The notes under the pieces: generated by a model
Told to the model about the DNA's origin: nothing
Database searches by the model: none
Seen by the model: the letters and a program-made list of their open reading frames with translations, nothing else
Position numbers and translations under genes: made by a program
Shown here: in pieces, positions 1 to 11,025 of the stretch
Layout: each line of letters begins with the position of its first letter
Position numbering within the stretch: position 1 is the stretch's first letter
DNA from: Pelagibacteraceae bacterium AG-325-C03
GTDB taxonomy: Bacteria > Pseudomonadota > Alphaproteobacteria > Pelagibacterales > Pelagibacteraceae
Assembly: GCA_003283025.1 (NCBI GenBank)
Contig: QBYC01000004.1
Coordinates: 1-42,375, forward strand
Reading direction: 5' to 3'
DNA length: 42,375 nt

Positions 1-30
1 GGTCACAAATTGATCACACTCAGACTAGGA

Positions 31-405
31 TTAATTTAATTTTCTTCTTTCGCAATCTCTATCTATTGATTGCCAGTTTCCTTCTTCAAAAGAAATTCCT
101 ACATCATTAAGAATATTTTTAAGTTTTTCTAATCTATCTGATTTCTTTTTTAGATTTTTTAAGTACATATATATCCAATTGAAAGCAGATTTTCCTAGAC
201 CAGTTTTCTTTATATGAATCCAATTTTCATAATCCATACATTCTTTAGTATTATAAATAAATTCGTCATAACTAATTTTTTGATCATCCTCACTTAACGA
301 GTCTAACCAACTACAGAATTTATTATTTCCTTCATCTATAACTTTATATTCTTGATAATGATCCAATAGACTATTATCGCTAAAATTTAGCTTTAGTTGT
401 TTCAT
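31..405 (-). CDS. hypothetical soluble protein (cassette A)
   Basis: 124-aa ORF, unrecognised; stop lies 6 bp after the 1-24 edge motif. Confidence 0.6.
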   Translation of the reverse strand: MKQLKLNFSDNSLLDHYQEYKVIDEGNNKFCSWLDSLSEDDQKISYDEFIYNTKECMDYENWIHIKKTGLGKSAFNWIYMYLKNLKKKSDRLEKLKNILNDVGISFEEGNWQSIDRDCERRKLN

Positions 406-491
406 CTTAGATTGTTGTTGAAGTTTATGTGTTAAAGAACTTTAACAATTATAAATATACACGTTAATAATGGCAAAATATTGTTATTAAG

Positions 492-893
492 TTAAAAATA
501 TTCAAAATATTTTAACCATAGCGCAATAGCCACAACAATATTTATTATAGATAGCGTTTGATAGTTTTTTATAACCCAATCATCAAACTTCGGTCTGCCT
601 CGCACTATATTTTCTAATATTGATGTATTAGATATAATTTTATCTGGCAAAAAACTAATTAATGTTAAAATCGGACCAAATGCAAAAATAATTATAATTG
701 GAACAAAAAAATACCATTTAACAATAAAAAAACCTAAAACTAATATTGTTTGCCAAGAAAGAATACCAAAAAGAATTAAAAAAGGGACTGGAGTTCCATC
801 GCTATGCAAGCCTCTAGCTGTTCTAAAAAAAGAGGCACATAAACACCAGCTAAAATACAAAATAACTAAAAAAATAATTTGCCAAACATTCAT
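492..893 (-). CDS. hypothetical multi-TM membrane protein
   Basis: 133-aa ORF with several hydrophobic segments. Confidence 0.6.
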   Translation of the reverse strand: MNVWQIIFLVILYFSWCLCASFFRTARGLHSDGTPVPFLILFGILSWQTILVLGFFIVKWYFFVPIIIIFAFGPILTLISFLPDKIISNTSILENIVRGRPKFDDWVIKNYQTLSIINIVVAIALWLKYFEYF

Positions 894-935
894 AATTTTT
901 AACCCAGAACCACGATTGCTAAAAGTTTTTTCATT

Positions 936-1157
936 TTAATAATTTTTAACACAAGCTTTAAAAGCTTTTTTAGCGGCATAATCGGTTTGAGCTGATCTGA
1001 CGGCATAAGATTTTGAACAAAATGCTTTAGCATCAGATTTAAAGAACTTGTCCAAATAAGGTGAAGCAATATCAAAAATAAAACTAAGCCAGAATATAGC
1101 TACTAAGCCTCCCACAATCCATTGCCAGGGTTCTATTTTTTCATGTTCATTTTTCAT
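936..1157 (-). CDS. hypothetical single-TM protein
   Basis: Track ORF 936-1211; internal Met (MKNEHEKIEPWQWIVGG) at 1157 avoids overlap with the ORF ending at 1159 and fits tight packing. Confidence 0.5.
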   Translation of the reverse strand: MKNEHEKIEPWQWIVGGLVAIFWLSFIFDIASPYLDKFFKSDAKAFCSKSYAVRSAQTDYAAKKAFKACVKNY

Positions 1158-1158
1158 A

Positions 1159-1356
1159 TTAAAATTTCCACCACTTTCCAAAAATTGGATCTTTAAATTG
1201 TTTTTTAGCACCGATATTTAATGCAATAGTTCCAATTATAAATAGTATCCACCACATTTTGTCGAAAAGATTATATTTCTGAAAATGAGAAATAATTGAA
1301 ACACAAACAAAAGCTACTAGTGCAGATCTTATTAAAATTTTTTGAGAAGCGGACAT
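1159..1356 (-). CDS. hypothetical small membrane protein
   Basis: 65-aa ORF with two hydrophobic segments. Confidence 0.5.
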   Translation of the reverse strand: MSASQKILIRSALVAFVCVSIISHFQKYNLFDKMWWILFIIGTIALNIGAKKQFKDPIFGKWWKF

Positions 1357-1357
1357 T

Positions 1358-1669
1358 TTAATTATTTGAGGAATAATACTTTATTAATCTTGCTTTGTGA
1401 TCTTTATAAACTCTGAGAAATATTCTGTTATAATATTTAATTGTATTATTTTGCCAAAGAGGCATATCTTTTGTCTCCTCGCCGTGCACATCTTGAACTC
1501 TATCTTGTAAAAATTGATCTTTATAATACCAGCTTCCAAGACCTAAAATTAATAAACGCTTTTCATTTTCCTCATGCTTAATCCATTTTTGCTCGTTTTC
1601 TCTAATTAACGTTTCTGTTTCGTTTTCGTTTATAAATTGCTCGACGTCAAACATAACGTATAATATCAT
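1358..1669 (-). CDS. hypothetical protein
   Basis: 103-aa ORF; MFDVEQF is a likely alternative start. Confidence 0.5.
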   Translation of the reverse strand: MILYVMFDVEQFINENETETLIRENEQKWIKHEENEKRLLILGLGSWYYKDQFLQDRVQDVHGEETKDMPLWQNNTIKYYNRIFLRVYKDHKARLIKYYSSNN

Positions 1670-1678
1670 TTATAAATA

Positions 1679-1831
1679 ATGTTTGAAACTATATTAATGG
1701 GTATAGGAATATGGGCGTTGATCATGGGTGTGATTGCCGTTGCGAGAGGCGCCCCCAAAGGTGATGAATTTGCGTGGGGGATAGGGGCTGCGATCGTCAC
1801 TTTGCTTTTAGTTTTAAACCAATTAGATTAG
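1679..1831 (+). CDS. hypothetical 50-aa membrane protein
   Basis: Hand-translated ATG..TAG: MFETILMGIGIWALIMGVIAVARGAPKGDEFAWGIGAAIVTLLLVLNQLD; below the ORF-track cutoff. Confidence 0.5.
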   Translation: MFETILMGIGIWALIMGVIAVARGAPKGDEFAWGIGAAIVTLLLVLNQLD

Positions 1832-1843
1832 AAAAATTTGTTC

Positions 1844-1988
1844 GTCACAAATTGGACTCACTCAGAAGCAAAATATGGTTTCAGGTTGCAAAAAAAGTAT
1901 TGTATAACGTTAAGAAGTGAAGGGTAGTGATCACCGCACAGGACTCATAAGCCTGGGGTCGGCGGTTCGAATCCGCCCCTCGCTACCA
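1844..1988 (+). repeat. 145-nt direct repeat, copy 1 (edge motif + promoter-like segment + tRNA-like element)
   Basis: Aligns without gaps to 2895-3039 and 5440-5584. Confidence 0.9.
1916..1988 (+). tRNA. tRNA-Met(CAT)-like element, possibly degenerate, copy 1
   Basis: Anticodon loop CTCATAA on CAGG/CCTG, T-arm GGCGG-TTCGAAT-CCGCC, encoded CCA; acceptor AGTGAAG/CCTCGCT with one A-C mismatch; D region about 3 nt short. Confidence 0.5.
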
Positions 1989-2055
1989 ATAATTAACTAA
2001 ATTATAAATTCTCGGTCCAATTTCGACACACTCAGAATTGAATTATTTTATTCGT

Positions 2056-2466
2056 TTAATATTTAAGTATTTGATTTTTAATATAATTATAATTTTCTAA
2101 ATTCTTTGCATCATTTCTCTTAATCATATCATAGTGATTTTCACCGTTCCTATCATACATAATTTTATATTTATCTAAATCTACAGCTGAGAGATAACCT
2201 AGTTGATACGTTAAAATTGTATGAACTCTATCGCCTTTAATAAGACAAGGATTAAGATTTGCTTCGAATTCTTTTGGATGAATTTTATTATCTACACAAT
2301 TATTATAATAATTCATTATTTCAGTTCCTTCTTCTAATGTTGGATTAGAGTCTATAGGTTCAAAATAATCTGAGAGATTTAAGTGGAGTTTAAAATTAGT
2401 ATTTCTCAATTTAAAATCTATGTTATTTAAAAAAATTTGGGAATTGATCAGATATTCCCTTAGCAA
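2056..2466 (-). CDS. hypothetical protein (cassette B)
   Basis: 136-aa ORF; N-terminus overlaps the upstream ORF so the true start may be internal. Confidence 0.5.
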   Translation of the reverse strand: MLREYLINSQIFLNNIDFKLRNTNFKLHLNLSDYFEPIDSNPTLEEGTEIMNYYNNCVDNKIHPKEFEANLNPCLIKGDRVHTILTYQLGYLSAVDLDKYKIMYDRNGENHYDMIKRNDAKNLENYNYIKNQILKY

Positions 2467-2872
2467 CAGTCATACAAAAAATAAGGTCTTCTTTTATAAC
2501 ACCTGATATATAATCTCCATTTTTCTTTTTATAATATTTAGCATCCTCTCTATATTTTTTTTCAAAAAGCATCATTTTTTCTAATTGGTTATTTTTTGCT
2601 TCCTCTAAAGGTGTTTTATTTTGTTTATGATCTGTTAAGGCAGCTAATTTGCTAAAACCAATGTTAAGTTTTAAATATGTCTCAGCAACATCTCTCATAT
2701 TTTCATTTAAAATAATTCTCGAATAAACATAGTTAAAAAGTGCAGAGCATCTATTATGAACCATGATGTCGTTTCCTTCATCACCAGTTAATTTATTGAA
2801 ATTTAAATTTTTGGCGGAAACATTTGAGCTAAAAAAGATCAATAAAAATATTTGCAAAAAGACTTTTCTCAT
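2423..2872 (-). CDS. hypothetical secreted protein (cassette B)
   Basis: 149-aa ORF with signal-peptide-like N-terminus MRKVFLQIFLLIFFSSNVSA. Confidence 0.6.
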   Translation of the reverse strand: MRKVFLQIFLLIFFSSNVSAKNLNFNKLTGDEGNDIMVHNRCSALFNYVYSRIILNENMRDVAETYLKLNIGFSKLAALTDHKQNKTPLEEAKNNQLEKMMLFEKKYREDAKYYKKKNGDYISGVIKEDLIFCMTVAKGISDQFPNFFK

Positions 2873-2894
2873 AAAACTATAATACTTTATTTTT

Positions 2895-3039
2895 GATCCA
2901 ATTTGGACTCACTCACAAGCAAAATATTGTTTCAGGTTGAAAAAAAAGTATTGTATAACTTTAAGAAGTGAAGGGTAGATATCGTTGGCCAGGACTCATA
3001 AGCCTGGGGTCGGCGGTTCGAATCCGCCCCTCGCTACCA
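2895..3039 (+). repeat. 145-nt direct repeat, copy 2
   Basis: Gapless alignment to copies 1 and 3; starts GATCCAATTTGGACTCACTCACAAGC. Confidence 0.9.
2967..3039 (+). tRNA. tRNA-Met(CAT)-like element, possibly degenerate, copy 2
   Basis: Same acceptor, anticodon and T-arm as copy 1; D-arm segment diverged (GATATCGTTGGC vs GTGATCACCGCA). Confidence 0.5.
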
Positions 3040-3122
3040 ATGAAATCAACGTTAATTAATTTTGGTAGAATTAAAATTATTTTTTTGGTCACAAATTGAT
3101 CACACTCAGAATGAGATTATTT

Positions 3123-3335
3123 TTATTTTTTTTTAAGATAAGTATAAATAGCAACCCAAATAGTTCCCAATAAAACTAAACTAGGTATACCCATATAGCC
3201 TATAAAACTTTTTAAACTTAAATCAATTTCGTTAGCACCAATGAAGATAAGATAGATCACTAATAAAACAATAAAAAACACACGAGCGTCTTTAAACCCA
3301 GAGCCTTTGAGAATATCTTTGAATTTTTTATTCAT
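3123..3335 (-). CDS. hypothetical small membrane protein (cassette C)
   Basis: 70-aa ORF with two hydrophobic segments. Confidence 0.5.
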   Translation of the reverse strand: MNKKFKDILKGSGFKDARVFFIVLLVIYLIFIGANEIDLSLKSFIGYMGIPSLVLLGTIWVAIYTYLKKK

Positions 3336-3367
3336 ATATTCTATTAACCTAAATAACTAATATACCA

Positions 3368-3913
3368 ATGAATTTTAAAAAATATATATGGAAATGTAGA
3401 TTGTTAGTTTTGAATACGCCAAACTACACTAATCAAGAGTATAAAAATTCAAAAGATATTTATCAAAAACAAATTAAAGAATTTCATAAACGATTTATCA
3501 AATTAGTTACAAGATTAGACAAATCTAAAAACTTTAGTGTTAGTTTAATTGGCTTTGACGGAACTGAAAAAGTACAAATAGATACAATAAATCTCAAAAA
3601 GTTATTTACCTCAATCGATAAAATGCCAATGAATAAAATAATTAAAGATAAAAGTTTTAAACCTTTAAATCTTTCATTATTTTCTGATTATAAACCTGAG
3701 ACAACTTTACATGGCTTAGGTTTTAAGAATAAAGAAAAGGCACTTTATACAGTTAAAGCTATCAAAAAAAGATCAATCAAGTATCAAGTAAATGTTATTG
3801 CTACCATGCTTGGAAGAGCAAAAAATCATCCTAACAAAACAAAAGATATGGATGATGCAATAAGGATCTTTGACAAATGGATGAAAGATTATAAAAAAAA
3901 TAAGAATAGATGA
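3368..3913 (+). CDS. conserved hypothetical protein, photolyase-coupled
   Basis: 181-aa ORF; ATGA overlap with the photolyase gene. Confidence 0.7.
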   Translation: MNFKKYIWKCRLLVLNTPNYTNQEYKNSKDIYQKQIKEFHKRFIKLVTRLDKSKNFSVSLIGFDGTEKVQIDTINLKKLFTSIDKMPMNKIIKDKSFKPLNLSLFSDYKPETTLHGLGFKNKEKALYTVKAIKKRSIKYQVNVIATMLGRAKNHPNKTKDMDDAIRIFDKWMKDYKKNKNR

Positions 3914-5361
3914 AAAAAATACTTTGGTTCAGACATGATTTAAGAATTGATGACAATGAAGCTTTCAATAAAGCTTGCAATGATGGAGAAGTATTACCAA
4001 TTTTTATTTATGATGAAGATTATTGGAAATTAGAAACATCTAGTTCATTTCATTTAAATTTTATGAGGGAAAGCTTAGAGGCATTAAATAATGAATTATC
4101 AAGCAAATATAATTCTAAAATTTCTATATTTTATGGAAATACAATTAAAATTTTAAATAAAATAATAAATCAATTTAAAATTACTGATATTTTTACCAAC
4201 CAAATATTTAGAAATAAATATATACTGGATTTAGATCAACAATGCTCTGAGTTCTTTGTTGAAAAAGGAGTTAATTGGCATCAATTTCAACAATTTGGAA
4301 TTCAACTTGAAAATAGAAAAAGAAATTATTGGGCTAATCAGTGGAATAAATTTATAGATATTGGGCCACAAACTAATAAAGCTAATTGTAAATTTTTAAC
4401 TTTTGAAGCACAAATTAGTGAAGTTAAAACTAATCAAATTGATGGCTCAAATATTCAAAAGGGTGGAAGAACTCATGCTCTCTCATTACTCAATAGTTTT
4501 TTAGAACAAAGATCTGAAAATTACCAAAAAGAAATGTCTTCACCAATCACAGGTGAGGTTGCTTGTTCAAGATTAAGTCCTCACATTACTTATGGAACTA
4601 TTTCATTGAGAGAAATTAATCATGCAATTGATAATACTAAACAAATCAATATGTCTTTTAATAAAGTTAAATCTTTAAGATCTTTTAGAAGTAGACTTGC
4701 TTGGCACTGTCATTTTATACAAAAACTTTATGATGAGCCTGAAATTGAATACCAAAATATGAATAGAGCTTATGACGGTGTTAGAGAAAATGATTTTAAT
4801 GATCAATATCACCAAGCTTGGAAGGACGGTTTAACTGGCTATCCTTTTGTTGATGCTTGTATGAGATATTTAAAATCAAATGGATGGATTAATTTTAGAA
4901 TGAGAGCTATGCTTGTGTCCTTTGCATCATATCAACTTTGGCTTGATTGGAAAAAAACTAGCAAACATTTAGCAAGATTATTTACCGACTATGAACCTGG
5001 AATTCATTATTCCCAGTTTCAAATGCAATCAGGTACAACTGGTATCAATACTATTAGAATTTATAACCCTATTAAACAATCAACAGATCAGGATCCAGAA
5101 GGTGAATTTATTAAAAAATGGGTGCCAGAGTTGAAAGAAATACCCAATAAATTAGTCCATGAGCCATGGAAACTTACTTACATAGATCAAAAGAGTCTAG
5201 GATTTGAAGTAGGAAAACATTATCCAAATCCAATTGTTGACCACCATTCTTCATCAAAGATTGCAAGAGATAAAATTTGGATGGTTAAAAAAACAGAAGA
5301 AGCAAAATTTAACGCTAAGAAAATACTAGAAAAACATGCAAGTGCTAAAGGTAGACATTAA
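3910..5361 (+). CDS. phrB: deoxyribodipyrimidine photolyase / cryptochrome family protein
   Basis: N-terminal KKILWFRHDLRIDDNEAF; C-terminal GRTHALSLLNSFL, SRLSPHITYGTIS, FVDACMRYLKSNGWINFRMRAMLVSF typical of the FAD domain. Confidence 0.9.
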   Translation: MKKILWFRHDLRIDDNEAFNKACNDGEVLPIFIYDEDYWKLETSSSFHLNFMRESLEALNNELSSKYNSKISIFYGNTIKILNKIINQFKITDIFTNQIFRNKYILDLDQQCSEFFVEKGVNWHQFQQFGIQLENRKRNYWANQWNKFIDIGPQTNKANCKFLTFEAQISEVKTNQIDGSNIQKGGRTHALSLLNSFLEQRSENYQKEMSSPITGEVACSRLSPHITYGTISLREINHAIDNTKQINMSFNKVKSLRSFRSRLAWHCHFIQKLYDEPEIEYQNMNRAYDGVRENDFNDQYHQAWKDGLTGYPFVDACMRYLKSNGWINFRMRAMLVSFASYQLWLDWKKTSKHLARLFTDYEPGIHYSQFQMQSGTTGINTIRIYNPIKQSTDQDPEGEFIKKWVPELKEIPNKLVHEPWKLTYIDQKSLGFEVGKHYPNPIVDHHSSSKIARDKIWMVKKTEEAKFNAKKILEKHASAKGRH

Positions 5362-5439
5362 ATCTTTTACAAGAAAATTTTATTTATATTTCCTGCTCCA
5401 TATATGCGTCAATGACATTGGTTCTTGACTAAGACTCTC

Positions 5440-5584
5440 GTCACAAATCAGTCATATCGAGAAGCAAATTATAGTTTTAGGTTGCAAAAAAAGTATTGTA
5501 TAACGTTAAGAAGTGAAGGGTAGTGTTCACCGCACAGGACTCATAAGCCTGGGGTCGGCGGTTCGAATTCGCCCCTCGCTACCA
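5440..5584 (+). repeat. 145-nt direct repeat, copy 3
   Basis: Gapless alignment to copies 1 and 2. Confidence 0.9.
5512..5584 (+). tRNA. tRNA-Met(CAT)-like element, possibly degenerate, copy 3
   Basis: As copy 1; T-arm TTCGAATTCGCC carries one C->T change. Confidence 0.5.
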
Positions 5585-5588
5585 AAGT

Positions 5589-6278
5589 ATGAGTAAAATA
5601 AAAAAAAAATATAAAATAAATTATTTTATTAATTTAGCATTTAAAGAATTTTTTTTTAAAAAAAAAATATCGATCAATTGGGATGATTACCCAAACAGAT
5701 ATGAATTAATAAATAGTATTATTTTAAAAAAAAATTTTAAAAATTACCTTGAAATAGGTTGCTTTAAAAACGAAAATTTTAATAAGATTAAGATCGATAA
5801 TAAAATTGGAGTTGACCCAGTTTGTGGAGGAAATATCCGTAAAACAAGTGATGAATTTTTTGAAAACTGCAAAGATTTTTTTGATATAATTTTTATTGAT
5901 GGTTTGCATCATTACGAACAAGTTAAAAAAGATATAATTAATGCCTTAAAATTTATTAACAAAGATGGTGTTATTTTAGTTCATGATTGCCTGCCCATAA
6001 AAGCCAGAGATCAGATGGTTCCTAGATCTCATGAAAAATGGAATGGAGATGTTTGGAAGTCTATTGTAGAATTTAGGACAAAAGAAAATGTTGATACTTA
6101 TGTATGTTTGGCAGATGAAGGTATTGGATTAATTTTAAATAGAGAAAATAAAAACAAACTAGATTTAGATGTTAATGATTTCAAAAGATTAAAGTTTTCT
6201 GATTATTATAATAATTACAAAAAATTTATGAATATAATTAGCCATAATGATATTTTCAAAATTTTAGATTTAAAGTGA
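5589..6278 (+). CDS. class I SAM-dependent methyltransferase (Methyltransf_24-like), glycan locus
   Basis: NYLEIGCF, KIGVDPVCGGNIRKTSDEFF, FDIIFIDGLHHYEQVKKDI; paralog of 20425-21150. Confidence 0.75.
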   Translation: MSKIKKKYKINYFINLAFKEFFFKKKISINWDDYPNRYELINSIILKKNFKNYLEIGCFKNENFNKIKIDNKIGVDPVCGGNIRKTSDEFFENCKDFFDIIFIDGLHHYEQVKKDIINALKFINKDGVILVHDCLPIKARDQMVPRSHEKWNGDVWKSIVEFRTKENVDTYVCLADEGIGLILNRENKNKLDLDVNDFKRLKFSDYYNNYKKFMNIISHNDIFKILDLK

Positions 6279-7087
6279 AAAATTTAAAAATATTTTGCAC
6301 ATCAATCGATTATTACAAAGTAATTGATAAGTTTCCGAATAATATTATTCCTTTAGGTTTAGGAAAAAATACTTTTCCGTCAAATTGGCTAGATGAAAAA
6401 ATAGGAAAAAATATATCAGAACTTAATTCTTATTATGGCGAGCTTACAGGAATATATTGGATATGGAAAAATAAAATTTCTGATATGAGAAAAGACGACT
6501 TAATTGGCAATTGTCATTATAGAAAACTTTGGTTGGAAAATCTATATATCAAAAAAAAAAAATTTACTTATACAAGTTTATATTCAAATTTATTAAATCA
6601 AAGTGAACTTTTAGGGAACATTGATAGTGTTCAAGTTCAGCCAATTGAATTTAAAGATAAAAATTTATTTACTGACTTTAGAGAAATACATAAAGTAGAT
6701 ATTTTAGAATATTGCGCCAATTTTTTAGAGGAAGATAATAAAAATTTATTTTTAAAACACATGAGTTCAAATATTTTATATCCGCTAAATATGTTTATAA
6801 CAAAAGTAGAATTCTTTGAAAAATACTGTGAATTAATATTTCCATGGCTTGAAAAATGTTTAAACCTTTGTATTAAAAAAAATTTATGTAAAGATTATAA
6901 TGAACGATTACCTGCATTTTTAGCAGAAAGATTTACTTCTTATTGGTTTTCCCAATTTAAAAAAAGAAAAATTTTATCATATGCTAGATTAGGTAAAATT
7001 TTTTTATCAAACAGACTAAATAATTTTGTAAGTCCAATAAAGTTTCCATTCACTTTTAGAATGTATCCAACAACACATAGGTACTAA
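6275..7087 (+). CDS. DUF4422-type putative glycosyltransferase
   Basis: YYGELTGIYWIWKN, IGNCHYRKLW, LAERFTSYWF; GTG start overlapping upstream stop. Confidence 0.7.
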   Translation: MKNLKIFCTSIDYYKVIDKFPNNIIPLGLGKNTFPSNWLDEKIGKNISELNSYYGELTGIYWIWKNKISDMRKDDLIGNCHYRKLWLENLYIKKKKFTYTSLYSNLLNQSELLGNIDSVQVQPIEFKDKNLFTDFREIHKVDILEYCANFLEEDNKNLFLKHMSSNILYPLNMFITKVEFFEKYCELIFPWLEKCLNLCIKKNLCKDYNERLPAFLAERFTSYWFSQFKKRKILSYARLGKIFLSNRLNNFVSPIKFPFTFRMYPTTHRY

Positions 7088-7094
7088 AACTATA

Positions 7095-7910
7095 ATGAGT
7101 AAACTTAAAATGTTTTGCATAACAATAAGAGATCAGGATTTAGACTTAATTAAATCTATAGGTTATATTCCAGTTGGTTTAGGAGATAATATTACTTCAA
7201 AAGGTTTTTTGAGAGATAATAATCAAATAAATATTTCAAGTAAAAATCCATTTTATGGTGAATACACTTTTCATTACTGGTTATGGAAAAATTACTTAGA
7301 TGAACTTGAAGACGGTTGGTTTGGTTTTTGTCAATATAGAAAATTTTGGTCCAGTGAAATTTTATTGGAGGATGATACAAATTTTAATAATTTTAAAAAA
7401 AAGATTAAAACAAAGATTTCAGATGATGACAACAATTTTGAGAGTATTATTGGAGAAACAATAAATATTAATCAATTTAAATTATCAAAATTTTTAAAAA
7501 AAAATTTTTTTAAAATGTTAAAAAAACCTACCCTTTTTTTTAATAAACATAAAAGAACTATTAAATTCCATTTTGATTTAATGCATGGTGATGGAAATTT
7601 GAGCAAAGCAATAAATTTACTAGAACAGACAGAAAAAGAGGATTTCTCAAATTTTGTTAATAAAAATGTAAGTTTTAATCCTCACAATATGTTCATTTGT
7701 AATTCAAAAGGTTTACTAAAAAAATATTATTCTTCAGTTTTTCCTTGGCTTGAAAGATGTGAAAATGAATTTGGATTAAATTTGGAAGGATATGGTTTAA
7801 AAAGATTATATGGGTTTTTAGCTGAAAGATATATGTCATACTGGTTTAAAAAATACACAAATTATAAAACACAAATTATTACTTTTAAGGATTTATCAGA
7901 TTTTTATTAA
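7095..7910 (+). CDS. DUF4422-type putative glycosyltransferase
   Basis: FYGEYTFHYWLWKN, FGFCQYRKFW, FLAERYMSYWF; paralog of preceding gene. Confidence 0.65.
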   Translation: MSKLKMFCITIRDQDLDLIKSIGYIPVGLGDNITSKGFLRDNNQINISSKNPFYGEYTFHYWLWKNYLDELEDGWFGFCQYRKFWSSEILLEDDTNFNNFKKKIKTKISDDDNNFESIIGETININQFKLSKFLKKNFFKMLKKPTLFFNKHKRTIKFHFDLMHGDGNLSKAINLLEQTEKEDFSNFVNKNVSFNPHNMFICNSKGLLKKYYSSVFPWLERCENEFGLNLEGYGLKRLYGFLAERYMSYWFKKYTNYKTQIITFKDLSDFY

Positions 7911-7911
7911 A

Positions 7912-8442
7912 TCAAAGAGCTTTAAATCTTTTTAAAAAGGTTTTGAATGTAAGTAAATTCATGTCTTTTTTAGAAATCTTTATTTTCGAAGGCCATTTTA
8001 TTTTAATAATAGGATCATTATAAATTATTCCATTTTCATACTCAGGTGCGTAGTAATTATCTAATTTATAGTAAATAATATTTTCTTTACTATAACTATA
8101 ATAGGCGTGAGCAAACCCTGCTGGTATATATAATCCTAAAGCATTTTCTTTAGAGAGAATAATTTTAAATGTTTTCCCAAACGTTTTGGAATTTTTTCTT
8201 AAGTCAATCACAATGTCTAATATTTTTCCCTTTAAGACATTTACATATTTTGATTGTTTAAATTTAGATTGGAAATGAAAGCCTCTTAAAACATTGCTTT
8301 TTGATGTGGTGCAATATTCAAAGATGAACTTTTTTCTTAATATCTTATCATTAAAAACCTCTCTTAAACTACCTCGACTGTCAATGTTATTTTTTTGCTT
8401 TACAATTAATAAATCTTTAAATTTAGTTTTCTTTAGTATCAT
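7912..8442 (-). CDS. rfbC: dTDP-4-dehydrorhamnose 3,5-epimerase-like protein
   Basis: DSRGSLREVF, VLRGFHFQ, DIVIDLRKNSKTFGK, IPAGFAHAYY. Confidence 0.8.
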   Translation of the reverse strand: MILKKTKFKDLLIVKQKNNIDSRGSLREVFNDKILRKKFIFEYCTTSKSNVLRGFHFQSKFKQSKYVNVLKGKILDIVIDLRKNSKTFGKTFKIILSKENALGLYIPAGFAHAYYSYSKENIIYYKLDNYYAPEYENGIIYNDPIIKIKWPSKIKISKKDMNLLTFKTFLKRFKAL

Positions 8443-9137
8443 TATTTAATTAATTTGCTTAATTTATTTAAGTTCATGTCTGTTCTTTTAGGAAATTCAC
8501 CTTTAGAAAAAATTTTTTTTATATTTTTTTTATATTTTTGTGCAAATTTAAATATAGTCTGGCTAGGACCACCAACATTAATTATTCCTTTTTTATTAAT
8601 AACTTTTAAAATTAATCTTGCAGCATCCTCTTGAAATATAAAATTTGATTTTACATTCGCGTAAGCTTTTTCGTGAACAAAAGGTTTCTCAGTCATGCAT
8701 AGTCTTATGATTAATGAGTTTTTATACATTTGCACAGCACATTCACCTCCAAGTTTTGACCATGAATAATTGTTCCATGGTTTTAAATAGTCTTGCTCCT
8801 TATAGTTTCCTCTATCACCGGGATAAACATAACTTGTTGACAAATATATAACTTTAATTTTAAATTCAGAGGCTGCTTTGACCACATTACAGCTACCTAT
8901 AATGTTTAAATCAATACTTTTGTTAATTTGTTTATCATGTATTTGCATTGGTCTGGATAAGCCAGCTAAATGCAAAATACAAAAAGGTTTAAATTTTATT
9001 AAATTTTTTTTAATAGAATTAATCGATAAAATATTTAATTCTTTTTTATTTCTAAAAATAAAATTTTTTCCTCTTAATTTTTGTAAAACTCTTCCAAATC
9101 TTCCATCTGAACCTGTGACAAGAATTTTTTTCATCAC
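8442..9137 (-). CDS. NAD(P)-dependent sugar reductase/epimerase (RmlD-like SDR)
   Basis: ILVTGSDGRFGRVL, YLSTSYVYPGDRGNYKE, YSWSKLGGE; shorter than typical RmlD. Confidence 0.7.
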   Translation of the reverse strand: MMKKILVTGSDGRFGRVLQKLRGKNFIFRNKKELNILSINSIKKNLIKFKPFCILHLAGLSRPMQIHDKQINKSIDLNIIGSCNVVKAASEFKIKVIYLSTSYVYPGDRGNYKEQDYLKPWNNYSWSKLGGECAVQMYKNSLIIRLCMTEKPFVHEKAYANVKSNFIFQEDAARLILKVINKKGIINVGGPSQTIFKFAQKYKKNIKKIFSKGEFPKRTDMNLNKLSKLIK

Positions 9138-10003
9138 CTAATTAGAGATTTTAGATATTTTGAATATTCACAGTTACCATAAAAGACTAAAGAATTTTTA
9201 ATATTTTTAAAGTTTATCCATTTATTATTTAAAGCAATTTCCTCTAAACAGGCAATTTTTAATCCTTGTCTATTTTCAATCGCTGAAATAAAATTTGATG
9301 CATCGTAAAAATCACTTATACTCCCAGTATCTAGCCAAGAACCACCTCTACCAATAAATTCTGCTTTAAGTTCATTTTTCTTTTTATATACGTTAAGTAA
9401 ATCGATTATTTCTAATTCTCCTCTTTTTGAAGGCTTTAATTTTTTTGTAAATTTAATAACTTTATTATCGAAAAAATAAAGACCAGTTACTGCAAAATTG
9501 GATTTAATTTTTTTGGGTTTTTCAATTAAATTTATTACTTTTTTATTTTTATTTAATGTAGCTACACCGTAAAGGTGAGGATTTTTTACTGGGTGTATAA
9601 AAATTTTGGCTCCATTTTTTAAATTAATATTTTTTTTTAAAATTTTAGTAAGGCTTTGTCCATAAAAAAAATTATCTCCAAGAATAAGAGCAATACTTTC
9701 TTTGCCGATAAATTTTTCACCTATTGTAAAGGCTTCTGGTAAACCTCCTGGGTTTAATTGTTCTTTATACTCTATTGAAATGCCAAGATTATTTTTCTCA
9801 GGTAAAATTTTTCTAAATTGATTCAATTGACCTTTATTAATTATTATTAAAATTTTTTTTATTCCTGCCAACATCAAAACAGATAATGGATAAAAAATTA
9901 AAGGTTTATCGTATAAAGGCAAGAGTTGTTTATTGACAGCTTTTGTAAGCGGACTCATCCTAGTACCCATTCCTCCCGCTAAAATAATCCCTTTCTTGAT
10001 CAT
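9134..10003 (-). CDS. rfbA: glucose-1-phosphate thymidylyltransferase
   Basis: KGIILAGGMGTRMSPLTKAVNKQLLPLYDKPLIFYPLSVLMLAGI. Confidence 0.9.
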   Translation of the reverse strand: MIKKGIILAGGMGTRMSPLTKAVNKQLLPLYDKPLIFYPLSVLMLAGIKKILIIINKGQLNQFRKILPEKNNLGISIEYKEQLNPGGLPEAFTIGEKFIGKESIALILGDNFFYGQSLTKILKKNINLKNGAKIFIHPVKNPHLYGVATLNKNKKVINLIEKPKKIKSNFAVTGLYFFDNKVIKFTKKLKPSKRGELEIIDLLNVYKKKNELKAEFIGRGGSWLDTGSISDFYDASNFISAIENRQGLKIACLEEIALNNKWINFKNIKNSLVFYGNCEYSKYLKSLIR

Positions 10004-11025
10004 ATTTTAAGACCTAACCTCTTTTCATAATCTTTTTTTAAAATTGATTTTAAAAATTTTTGATTGTTTAAGTACCATATGATTGTTTTTTTAAGACCTA
10101 CTTCAAATTTTACTTTTGGTTTCCAATTAAATTCTTTAAAAATTTTTTTATTATCTAATGCATATCTAAAATCATGGCCTGGTCGATCTTTGACAAATTT
10201 AATTTTTGTTTTTTTTCCAATTTTAATATTCAAAGTTTTACAAATTTTAATTATTTTTTTTACCAAATCTATATTATTTAAATTCAATCCTGAACCAACG
10301 TTATAACTTTCTCCATTTTTACCTTTTAAATAAAGCTTGAATAAGGCTTCACAATGGTCATCTACATGTATCCACTCTCTAGAATTTCTTCCTTTTGCAT
10401 AAATAGGCAGTTCTTTATTATTGAAAATATTCGAAATCATCTTGGGAATTAATTTTTCAGGAAATTGGTATGGACCATAGTTATTACAACAATTTGATAT
10501 TATAGCTTTTAATTTGTAAGTTCTGATGTAAGATTTTACCAAATGATCTGCACTTGCTTTAGAAGCTGAGTAAGGTGAACTAGGCTCATATTTATGCTTT
10601 TCGTCTGATCTTTGACCTATTTTAATATCTCCATAAACTTCATCAGTTGAAATATGTATAAGTTTTGGATTTATATTTTTTTTCTTCAACAATCTTAGGG
10701 ATTCAAGGATACTAAAGGTACCATTAATATTTGTATGAATAAAGTTTTCTGGACCGTCAATAGATCTATCAACATGGGTTTCTGCAGCTAAATTGAAAAT
10801 TACTTTTGGATTATATTTTCTTATTATATTTCTAACTTTATTTCTATCAATTATATCAAGTTTAATAAGTTTATAATTTTTTTTGTTTTTTAGATTATTT
10901 TTGTATTTATTAGAAGAATAAGTTAGTTTATCAAGATTAATTACATAAAAATTTTTTCTGATTAAAAAATTGACAAGGTTACTTCCTATAAAACCAGAGC
11001 CACCTGTTACGATGATTTTTTTCAT
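10000..11025 (-). CDS. rfbB: dTDP-glucose 4,6-dehydratase
   Basis: IIVTGGSGFIGSNLV, HISTDEVYGD, YSASKASADHLV, NCCNNYGPYQFPEKLIP. Confidence 0.92.
   Translation of the reverse strand: MKKIIVTGGSGFIGSNLVNFLIRKNFYVINLDKLTYSSNKYKNNLKNKKNYKLIKLDIIDRNKVRNIIRKYNPKVIFNLAAETHVDRSIDGPENFIHTNINGTFSILESLRLLKKKNINPKLIHISTDEVYGDIKIGQRSDEKHKYEPSSPYSASKASADHLVKSYIRTYKLKAIISNCCNNYGPYQFPEKLIPKMISNIFNNKELPIYAKGRNSREWIHVDDHCEALFKLYLKGKNGESYNVGSGLNLNNIDLVKKIIKICKTLNIKIGKKTKIKFVKDRPGHDFRYALDNKKIFKEFNWKPKVKFEVGLKKTIIWYLNNQKFLKSILKKDYEKRLGLKI

Follow-up and report, generated by a model that had tools for sequence, protein, structure and literature searches.

The described systems closest to the locus analyzed here are cis-mobilizable elements (CIMEs) and the tandem accretions that they form, such as those of the ICESt1-related elements and the ssrA islands of Dehalococcoides (PMC3146451). 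These are integrase-less elements, flanked by attachment (att) sites, that are stacked at one RNA gene next to or alongside integrase-bearing elements whose sites match, and each of their boundaries is marked by a displaced 3' fragment; the ssrA islands employ a serine recombinase (PMC3146451). We describe an array of comparable organization at the start of a 42,375-nucleotide stretch of DNA from the SAR11 member Pelagibacteraceae bacterium AG-325-C03 (contig QBYC01000004.1, denoted C4; the whole stretch is referred to as the window). This array very probably consists of four stacked, non-autonomous, tRNA-targeting cassettes that were integrated site-specifically in trans by a tyrosine integrase of the phage type. 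The cassettes are best read as a variant of the CIME, tycheposon and additive-island elements, with tandem accretion and CIMEs being the nearest. As in CIMEs, no integrase and no transfer genes are found in the cassettes, which differ from CIMEs in their size (0.6-2.5 kb, with one to six open reading frames, ORFs), in forming a family with conserved ends, in targeting the anticodon loop of tRNA-Met, and in mostly lacking an integrase-bearing element in the stack. A relative, G098, does contain an integrase-bearing element whose att sites match in sequence, as would suit mobilisation of the CIME type.

Tycheposons, which were described in Prochlorococcus and have been reported in Methylophilaceae, are 4-200 kb long and are marked by a recombinase gene (PMC10872708). 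The common features are streamlined marine hosts, tRNA targets including tRNA-Met, cargo-bearing islands and, as predicted for the cassettes, the use of a tyrosine recombinase; the cassettes are likewise tRNA-bound but span 0.63-2.54 kb, and no recombinase is encoded in the 22 that we delimited. The tycheposon paper, Hackl et al. 2023, is said to mention similar elements in co-occurring marine microbes. Additive flexible genomic islands with partial tRNA repeats, known from Actinomarinales (PMC7771536) and from Methylopumilus (fGI-2; PMC10872708), are small cassettes that are inserted at tRNA genes in streamlined bacteria of marine or freshwater habitats and are recognizable by direct repeats of part of the tRNA; the consulted passages on them describe no attP anatomy, alternative attB or candidate integrase, all of which are resolved for the cassettes below. 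Similarly to tRNA islands of the Islander type, the target gene is restored and a displaced fragment marks the far end, whereas an integrase inside the island is present only in the G098 element. Integron arrays and clusters of attC sites lacking integron-integrases (CALINs) also comprise small co-oriented cassettes that are stacked at one site by a recombinase acting in trans (as is inferred here), but in the cassettes a tRNA att core with arm-like direct repeats appears to take the place of attC, insertion occurs at the end of a tRNA, and the displaced tRNA half is duplicated each time. Finally, miniature inverted-repeat transposable elements resemble the cassettes in being non-autonomous and in having short conserved ends, and their enzyme is provided in trans, as is proposed for the cassettes; unlike these elements, the cassettes carry cargo genes and insert site-specifically.

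Array layout and attachment sites

The initial annotation recognized three 145-nt repeats (1844-1988, 2895-3039 and 5440-5584) and considered them to be whole tRNA-Met-like units multiplied together with their promoters. Alignment confirms these units as gap-free copies: in a genome-wide search with unit 1 as the query, the identity was 91% over 141 nt for unit 2 and 96% over 125 nt for unit 3, in which the initial ~20 nt are degraded. The anatomy is a different one, namely a direct-repeat motif of 19-23 nt, a conserved stretch of ~50 nt, a 5' part that is tRNA-like but degenerate, and a displaced tRNA-Met 3' half that extends from the anticodon loop to CCA. In unit 1, this half belongs to a 53-nt perfect match to the 3' part of a complete tRNA-Met(CAT) gene on contig C24 (C24:7326-7402). 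On these sequence grounds, the units are right-hand attachment sites (attR), in which the P-arm end of an element abuts the displaced tRNA-Met 3' half, and not tRNA genes. The edge motif, CAAATTGRNCNCACTCAGA, has five matches in the window, all on the plus strand (0.17 expected from shuffled sequences; none of the shuffles reached five), with copies also 3' of unit 1 (2018), 3' of unit 2 (3092) and at the start of C4 (6). Thus, every cargo block is bounded by the motif on both sides, although the right-end motif of the last block has decayed, and motifs lie on both sides of every unit except unit 3, in which the left motif is decayed and the right one is missing. With the motif denoted P' at the left end and P at the right end of an element, and the elements denoted e1 to e4, the features are as follows.

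1-24, plus strand: P' motif, left end of e2; the contig starts inside this left end (C4:1-24 aligns to positions 48-71 of the relatives' left-end query with 96% identity).
25-1843, minus strand: e2 cargo, five small ORFs of 65-133 aa (31-405, 492-893, 936-1211, 1159-1356, 1358-1669); no Pfam match for the four ORFs scanned.
1844-1988, plus strand: unit 1, attR of e2, with the P motif at 1848-1866, ~50 conserved nt, the degenerate tRNA-like 5' part at 1916-~1935 and, from 1936 to CCA, 53 nt of tRNA-Met; called tRNA-Met by ARAGORN, sub-threshold in Rfam.
2012-2036, plus strand: P' motif, left end of e3, the first 71 bp of which are 97% identical to the left end of e1 in the relative G060.
2056-2872, minus strand: e3 cargo, a 136-aa ORF (family also present in G060, G027 and G151) and a 149-aa ORF.
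2895-3039, plus strand: unit 2, attR of e3.
3086-3110, plus strand: P' motif, left end of e4.
3123-3335, minus strand: e4 cargo, a 70-aa membrane-type ORF that is also present in the G049 cassette.
3368-3913, plus strand: e4 cargo, DUF4174 protein (PF13778, E=4e-13).
3910-5361, plus strand: e4 cargo, photolyase-family protein (PF03441, PF00875).
5440-5584, plus strand: unit 3, the oldest attR (e4), with a decayed P motif, one T-arm substitution and no P' motif beyond it; end of the array.
5589-7910, plus strand: resident flank, a methyltransferase (fam16) and two fam1-family proteins; the same flank lies right of the tRNA-Met locus in relatives, where fam1 also borders the array.

The array is followed by a variable surface-type island (5589-11025) that encompasses the methyltransferase, the fam1 proteins and sugar-related genes and whose position is conserved across the genus.

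The three units of the window, to which the array was initially confined, are only a part of it, as it continues on C24. There, ~47 nt after the CCA of the true tRNA-Met, lies the motif TCGGCACAATTTCGGCACACTCAGA, which consists of two direct repeats of ~11 nt and is followed by e1 (~1.8-1.85 kb, three minus-strand ORFs), a second motif, the first nucleotides of a fourth unit (unit 0) and the contig end. C4 starts with the motif that is expected after this broken-off unit. Right of the tRNA-Met locus in relatives are the methyltransferase and the glycan- or sugar-related families that come after unit 3 here. Given these shared right-flank families and the alignment of the C4 start to the left end in relatives, C24 and C4 are almost certainly neighbours separated by ~150 missing nt, and the sequence of the full array is almost certainly tRNA-Met, e1, unit 0, e2, unit 1, e3, unit 2, e4, unit 3, that is, four stacked elements. 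Other matches to the motif, on C10 and elsewhere (2-3 mismatches), were discarded, being partly at the level of the reversed control; the C10 match reads as coding sequence.

Crossover point and model of integration

The crossover point is pinpointed by genus g2, in which elements with the same ends are located at the 3' end of a gene for a 123-aa protein. The empty site in related genomes reads GCAGATCTTTCTTAGATCTACATATC, whereas the occupied site in G261 reads GTAGATCTCTCATAAGCC...CCA on the left and ...GACCAGGACTCTTGGATCTACATATC on the right. Comparison of these sequences places the exchange within ACTCAT, in the tRNA anticodon loop, and the TCATAA brought by the element restores the Ser-stop end of the 123-aa gene. 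The tRNA piece in G261 and G255 is that of genus g1 (0 mismatches in 45 nt); the native tRNA-Met of g2, including that of G255 itself, differs from it at four positions. This g1 allele inside g2 genomes strongly indicates that the tRNA half is carried by the element itself, which has crossed genera. With both attL and attR delineated by the empty and occupied sites and the paired motifs, exact insertion relative to empty sites argues for site-specific recombination.

We propose the following model. A cassette would consist of cargo between two attachment half-sites, the left one formed by the tRNA-Met 3' half (anticodon loop to CCA) and the P' motif, and the right one by the P motif, ~50 conserved nt and the degenerate tRNA-like 5' part, which terminates in CAGGACT. 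Circularization would join these ends into an attP of the order P motif, core CAGGACTCATAAGCCTG... and P' motif, with a predicted junction of the form P motif - CAGGACTCATAAGCC...CCA - P' motif. Recombination at ACTCAT in the anticodon loop of tRNA-Met would insert the cassette, rebuild the intact tRNA at the left and displace the previous 3' half rightwards, leaving it to decay; after repeated insertion, the newest cassette would adjoin the tRNA and the oldest would be the farthest. The enzyme, a phage-type tyrosine integrase like that of the G098 element, would act in trans, with the motif as a putative arm-type integrase-binding site, and later homologous exchange would reshape the cassettes.

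Cassettes in related genomes

The unit or the motif is found at the same tRNA-Met locus in many genomes of the genus, over a dozen relatives in all (e.g., HIMB058, AG-349-F22, AG-904-F16 and AG-908-F08), and the motif pair is present in 10 of 372 genomes, with no match for the reversed control. The mapped loci are empty in G126 and G134, hold one element in G007, G033, G039, G046, G049 and G151, and hold stacks in G027, G060 and AG-325-C03. Among the 22 delimited elements, the stretch from CCA to the P motif spans 634-2543 bp (median 1.5 kb), with a coding share of 84-98% in all but one (58%), and 49 of the 52 cargo ORFs of at least 65 aa face the tRNA (p=1e-11); no recombinase, transposase or conjugation family was detected among these 52 ORFs. 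The left ends (~70 bp) and the right ends (~100 bp) are alike across elements with otherwise unrelated interiors; for the unit part, the mean ungapped identity is ~77%, and most pairs are higher. Some interiors are partly shared: e1 of AG-325-C03 and the G046 cassette have the right 698 bp in common (96% identity), e4 and the G049 cassette the left 306 bp (96%), and the second element of G060 corresponds to the G087 cassette (97% over 693 bp) with an extra gene. It follows that cassettes move and also recombine with one another. The initial proposal that cassettes are stacked at a tRNA and that their cargo turns over is thus strongly supported, and neither outcome that had been named as speaking against it materialized: the units are not confined to one genome with invariant cargo in relatives, nor are they dispersed functional tRNA genes.

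Beyond tRNA-Met, the layout recurs at tRNA-Phe(GAA) in genus g6, in cassettes (L178:2235-3934 and L179:6592-8364) where the 3' half of tRNA-Phe is duplicated; tRNA-Phe loci of g6 are among the matches of the motif pair. Motif pairs ending in CACTCAGC, followed by a conserved AAAGAAATTTGG... stretch, also occur at unidentified sites in G202 and G265 (L180:3782-3805 and L181:1066, in reverse-complement coordinates) and perhaps represent a further family of right ends.

The cargo mostly lacks known families. Besides the DUF4174/photolyase pair of e4, those detected include FkbM methyltransferases, a MUG113/T5orf172 protein in e1, an MrcB_N/NucS_C nuclease in G049 that matches a PADLOC candidate defence family, and an autotransporter with a lectin domain in G166; a phage-facing role for some of the cargo appears plausible. 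The best matches of the e4 photolyase in the other 168 genomes of the genus are at most 37% identical. We rejected the possibility that it is a resident core gene of the locus, given a second photolyase-family gene on C17 of the same genome and the lack of one at this locus in relatives.

Provided that new cassettes are inserted at the tRNA, the copy most distant from it should be the oldest. Counted from proximal to distal, mismatches to the native tRNA-Met number 0, 0 and 1 in AG-325-C03 (the fourth copy falls in the contig gap), 0 and 7 in G060, and 0 and 1 in G027, against 0 in each of the native g1 tRNA-Met genes compared. The distal copies are accordingly more decayed than the proximal ones in all three stacks, and so is the P motif of unit 3. 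In 7 of the 9 genomes listed as single or unresolved, the displaced tRNA halves are perfect.

Candidate helper integrase and alternative explanations

The initial annotation reported that the window lacks an integrase and called for a search for a tyrosine recombinase next to the unit. The former holds: there is no Phage_integrase gene in the window, and the two PF00589 genes of this genome are both on C14. As to the latter, a recombinase with matching sites was found in G098, but the exact motif end is absent from the 20 kb around the two C14 genes. We rejected both as helpers: the 465-aa integrase sits in prophage-like DNA beside tRNA-Pro(TGG) (C14, L029:5952-10294), and the 318-aa recombinase lies 4-5 kb from it and is of a size that is common at other loci in the genus, with PF00589 matches of similar size in most of its genomes.

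G098 harbours a ~5-kb element that occupies this tRNA-Met and is bordered on either side by the motifs of the cassettes. It contains the gene of a 327-aa tyrosine integrase (PF00589, E=1.2e-22; phrog_1 integrase, E=2.5e-53), which starts just past the motif pair CCGGCACAAATCCGGCACACTCAGA, together with a gene for an AAA_25/helicase-like protein and small ORFs. At the left end of the element, the 5' half of the host tRNA continues into a degenerate 3' half; at its right end, the motif precedes an upstream region and a tRNA-Met 5' half, both brought by the element, and this 5' half completes the gene. Both the G098 and the cassette forms would be accounted for by an ancestral attP that contained an entire tRNA-Met and decayed on one side, as would the resemblance of the units to tRNAs with promoters. 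Judging from the shared motifs and target, an integrase of the G098 type is likely to be the helper in trans. Its matches (E<=1e-10) are limited to 12 of 397 genomes of the family, G098 included; the others are at most 41% identical, and in some of these others, a pair of repeats with a different sequence is seen by eye immediately upstream of the integrase gene. No relatives of this integrase were detected in viral contigs, and IMG/VR yielded 0 matches when scanned for the motif pair, for the core of the unit and for the 3' half of tRNA-Met. The unit has no match among phage and plasmid records, and the tRNA-Met 3' half has only distant matches in phage records (the best 90% over part), several of which are annotated phage tRNA genes and none of which is in a pelagiphage. 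Separately, G166 contains a two-element stack with a divergent tRNA-Met (L105:2015-6163), whose second element has a right end that, by eye, is similar to that of the G098 element.

A reading of the units as additional functional copies of the tRNA-Met gene, each with a promoter of its own and spread by duplication, is highly improbable. ARAGORN does call tRNA-Met in unit 1 and in the equivalent units of G007, G009, G033 and G046, but units 2 and 3 are not called; in Rfam, unit 1 scores 28.6 bits against a cut-off of 29, and units 2 and 3 have no match, so that the units are tRNA-like but are not whole tRNA genes with a complete cloverleaf. Furthermore, their minimum-energy folds are not cloverleaf-like, the D-arm part differs from unit to unit, and T-arm and anticodon changes accumulate in the copies. 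Such tRNA-like units beside islands should therefore not be annotated as tRNA genes. A 43-aa ORF (GSEGRIRTADPRLMSPGQRYLPFTS; 2961-3092, minus strand), antisense to the tRNA-like part of unit 2, is likely a spurious protein in annotations. The chance that the array is a CALIN with attC sites is smaller still. The small, co-oriented, stacked cassettes without an integrase of their own would fit, but the recombination point is in a tRNA anticodon loop between direct repeats, a displaced tRNA half marks every boundary, and the window contains no tyrosine-type integrase gene of any kind; boundaries made of a tRNA-Met 3' half and direct-repeat motifs with an ACTCAT crossover are unlike attC by look, although no dedicated attC search was run.

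Two further alternatives deserve more weight. Exchange of cargo by homologous recombination between the repeated units, which the initial annotation considered, does occur, as attested by cassettes that share one end or half, but it appears to be secondary; as the sole process, with no site-specific recombinase operating now, it is quite unlikely and is largely refuted by the g2 site, given that it cannot explain insertion outside a tRNA in another genus with an exact ACTCAT crossover and a foreign tRNA allele, nor empty sites beside occupied ones. Somewhat less unlikely, but still improbable, is that the stack is a graveyard, that is, a series of immobile remnants left behind when internal deletions removed the integrase from larger islands or satellites that had carried it. 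The existence of the 5-kb G098 element at the same site, the likeness of its right end to that of the second G166 element, and the decay of distal units all point in this direction; against it, the ends are conserved despite mostly unrelated interiors, intact ORFs fill nearly all cassettes, and displaced tRNA halves are mostly perfect, which together suggests recent, repeated movement without an integrase.

Several observations weigh against site-specific integration in trans as we propose it. Neither a circular form nor excision was seen, with no read data at hand. In some cassettes, the similarity is restricted to one end, so that homologous recombination also contributes to their structure; in e4, two genes are oriented against the prevailing direction and the P motif has decayed. 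The candidate helper was found in a single genome, is of reverse polarity in that it restores the 5' half of the tRNA, and was not found in the 79%-complete genome that carries the array. The join of C24 and C4 is based on synteny and matching ends, not on sequence crossing the gap. Directly evident from genome comparison are the boundaries and empty sites, the stacking, the combination of common ends and different cargo, the decay of distal copies and the movement between genera; a circular intermediate, binding of the integrase to the motif, the action of a helper in trans and transfer between cells are predicted.

SAR11 bacteria rank among the most abundant cells on Earth, and their genomes appear nearly free of mobile DNA, yet their flexible gene pools are large. 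There is perhaps an even chance that the cassettes constitute an integron-like capture system of SAR11 derived from phage-type att sites, in which ends of ~170 nt (~70 left, ~100 right) would mobilise almost any one to six genes, and a shared integrase would stack them at tRNA-Met, tRNA-Phe or the 3' end of a gene, across genera, with no enzyme in the cassette. An enzyme-free cassette family whose ends and insertion point are defined, and which has a candidate helper integrase, would provide a concrete, testable mechanism of gene gain and loss in SAR11, and a compact signature by which such cassettes may be found in other streamlined bacteria.

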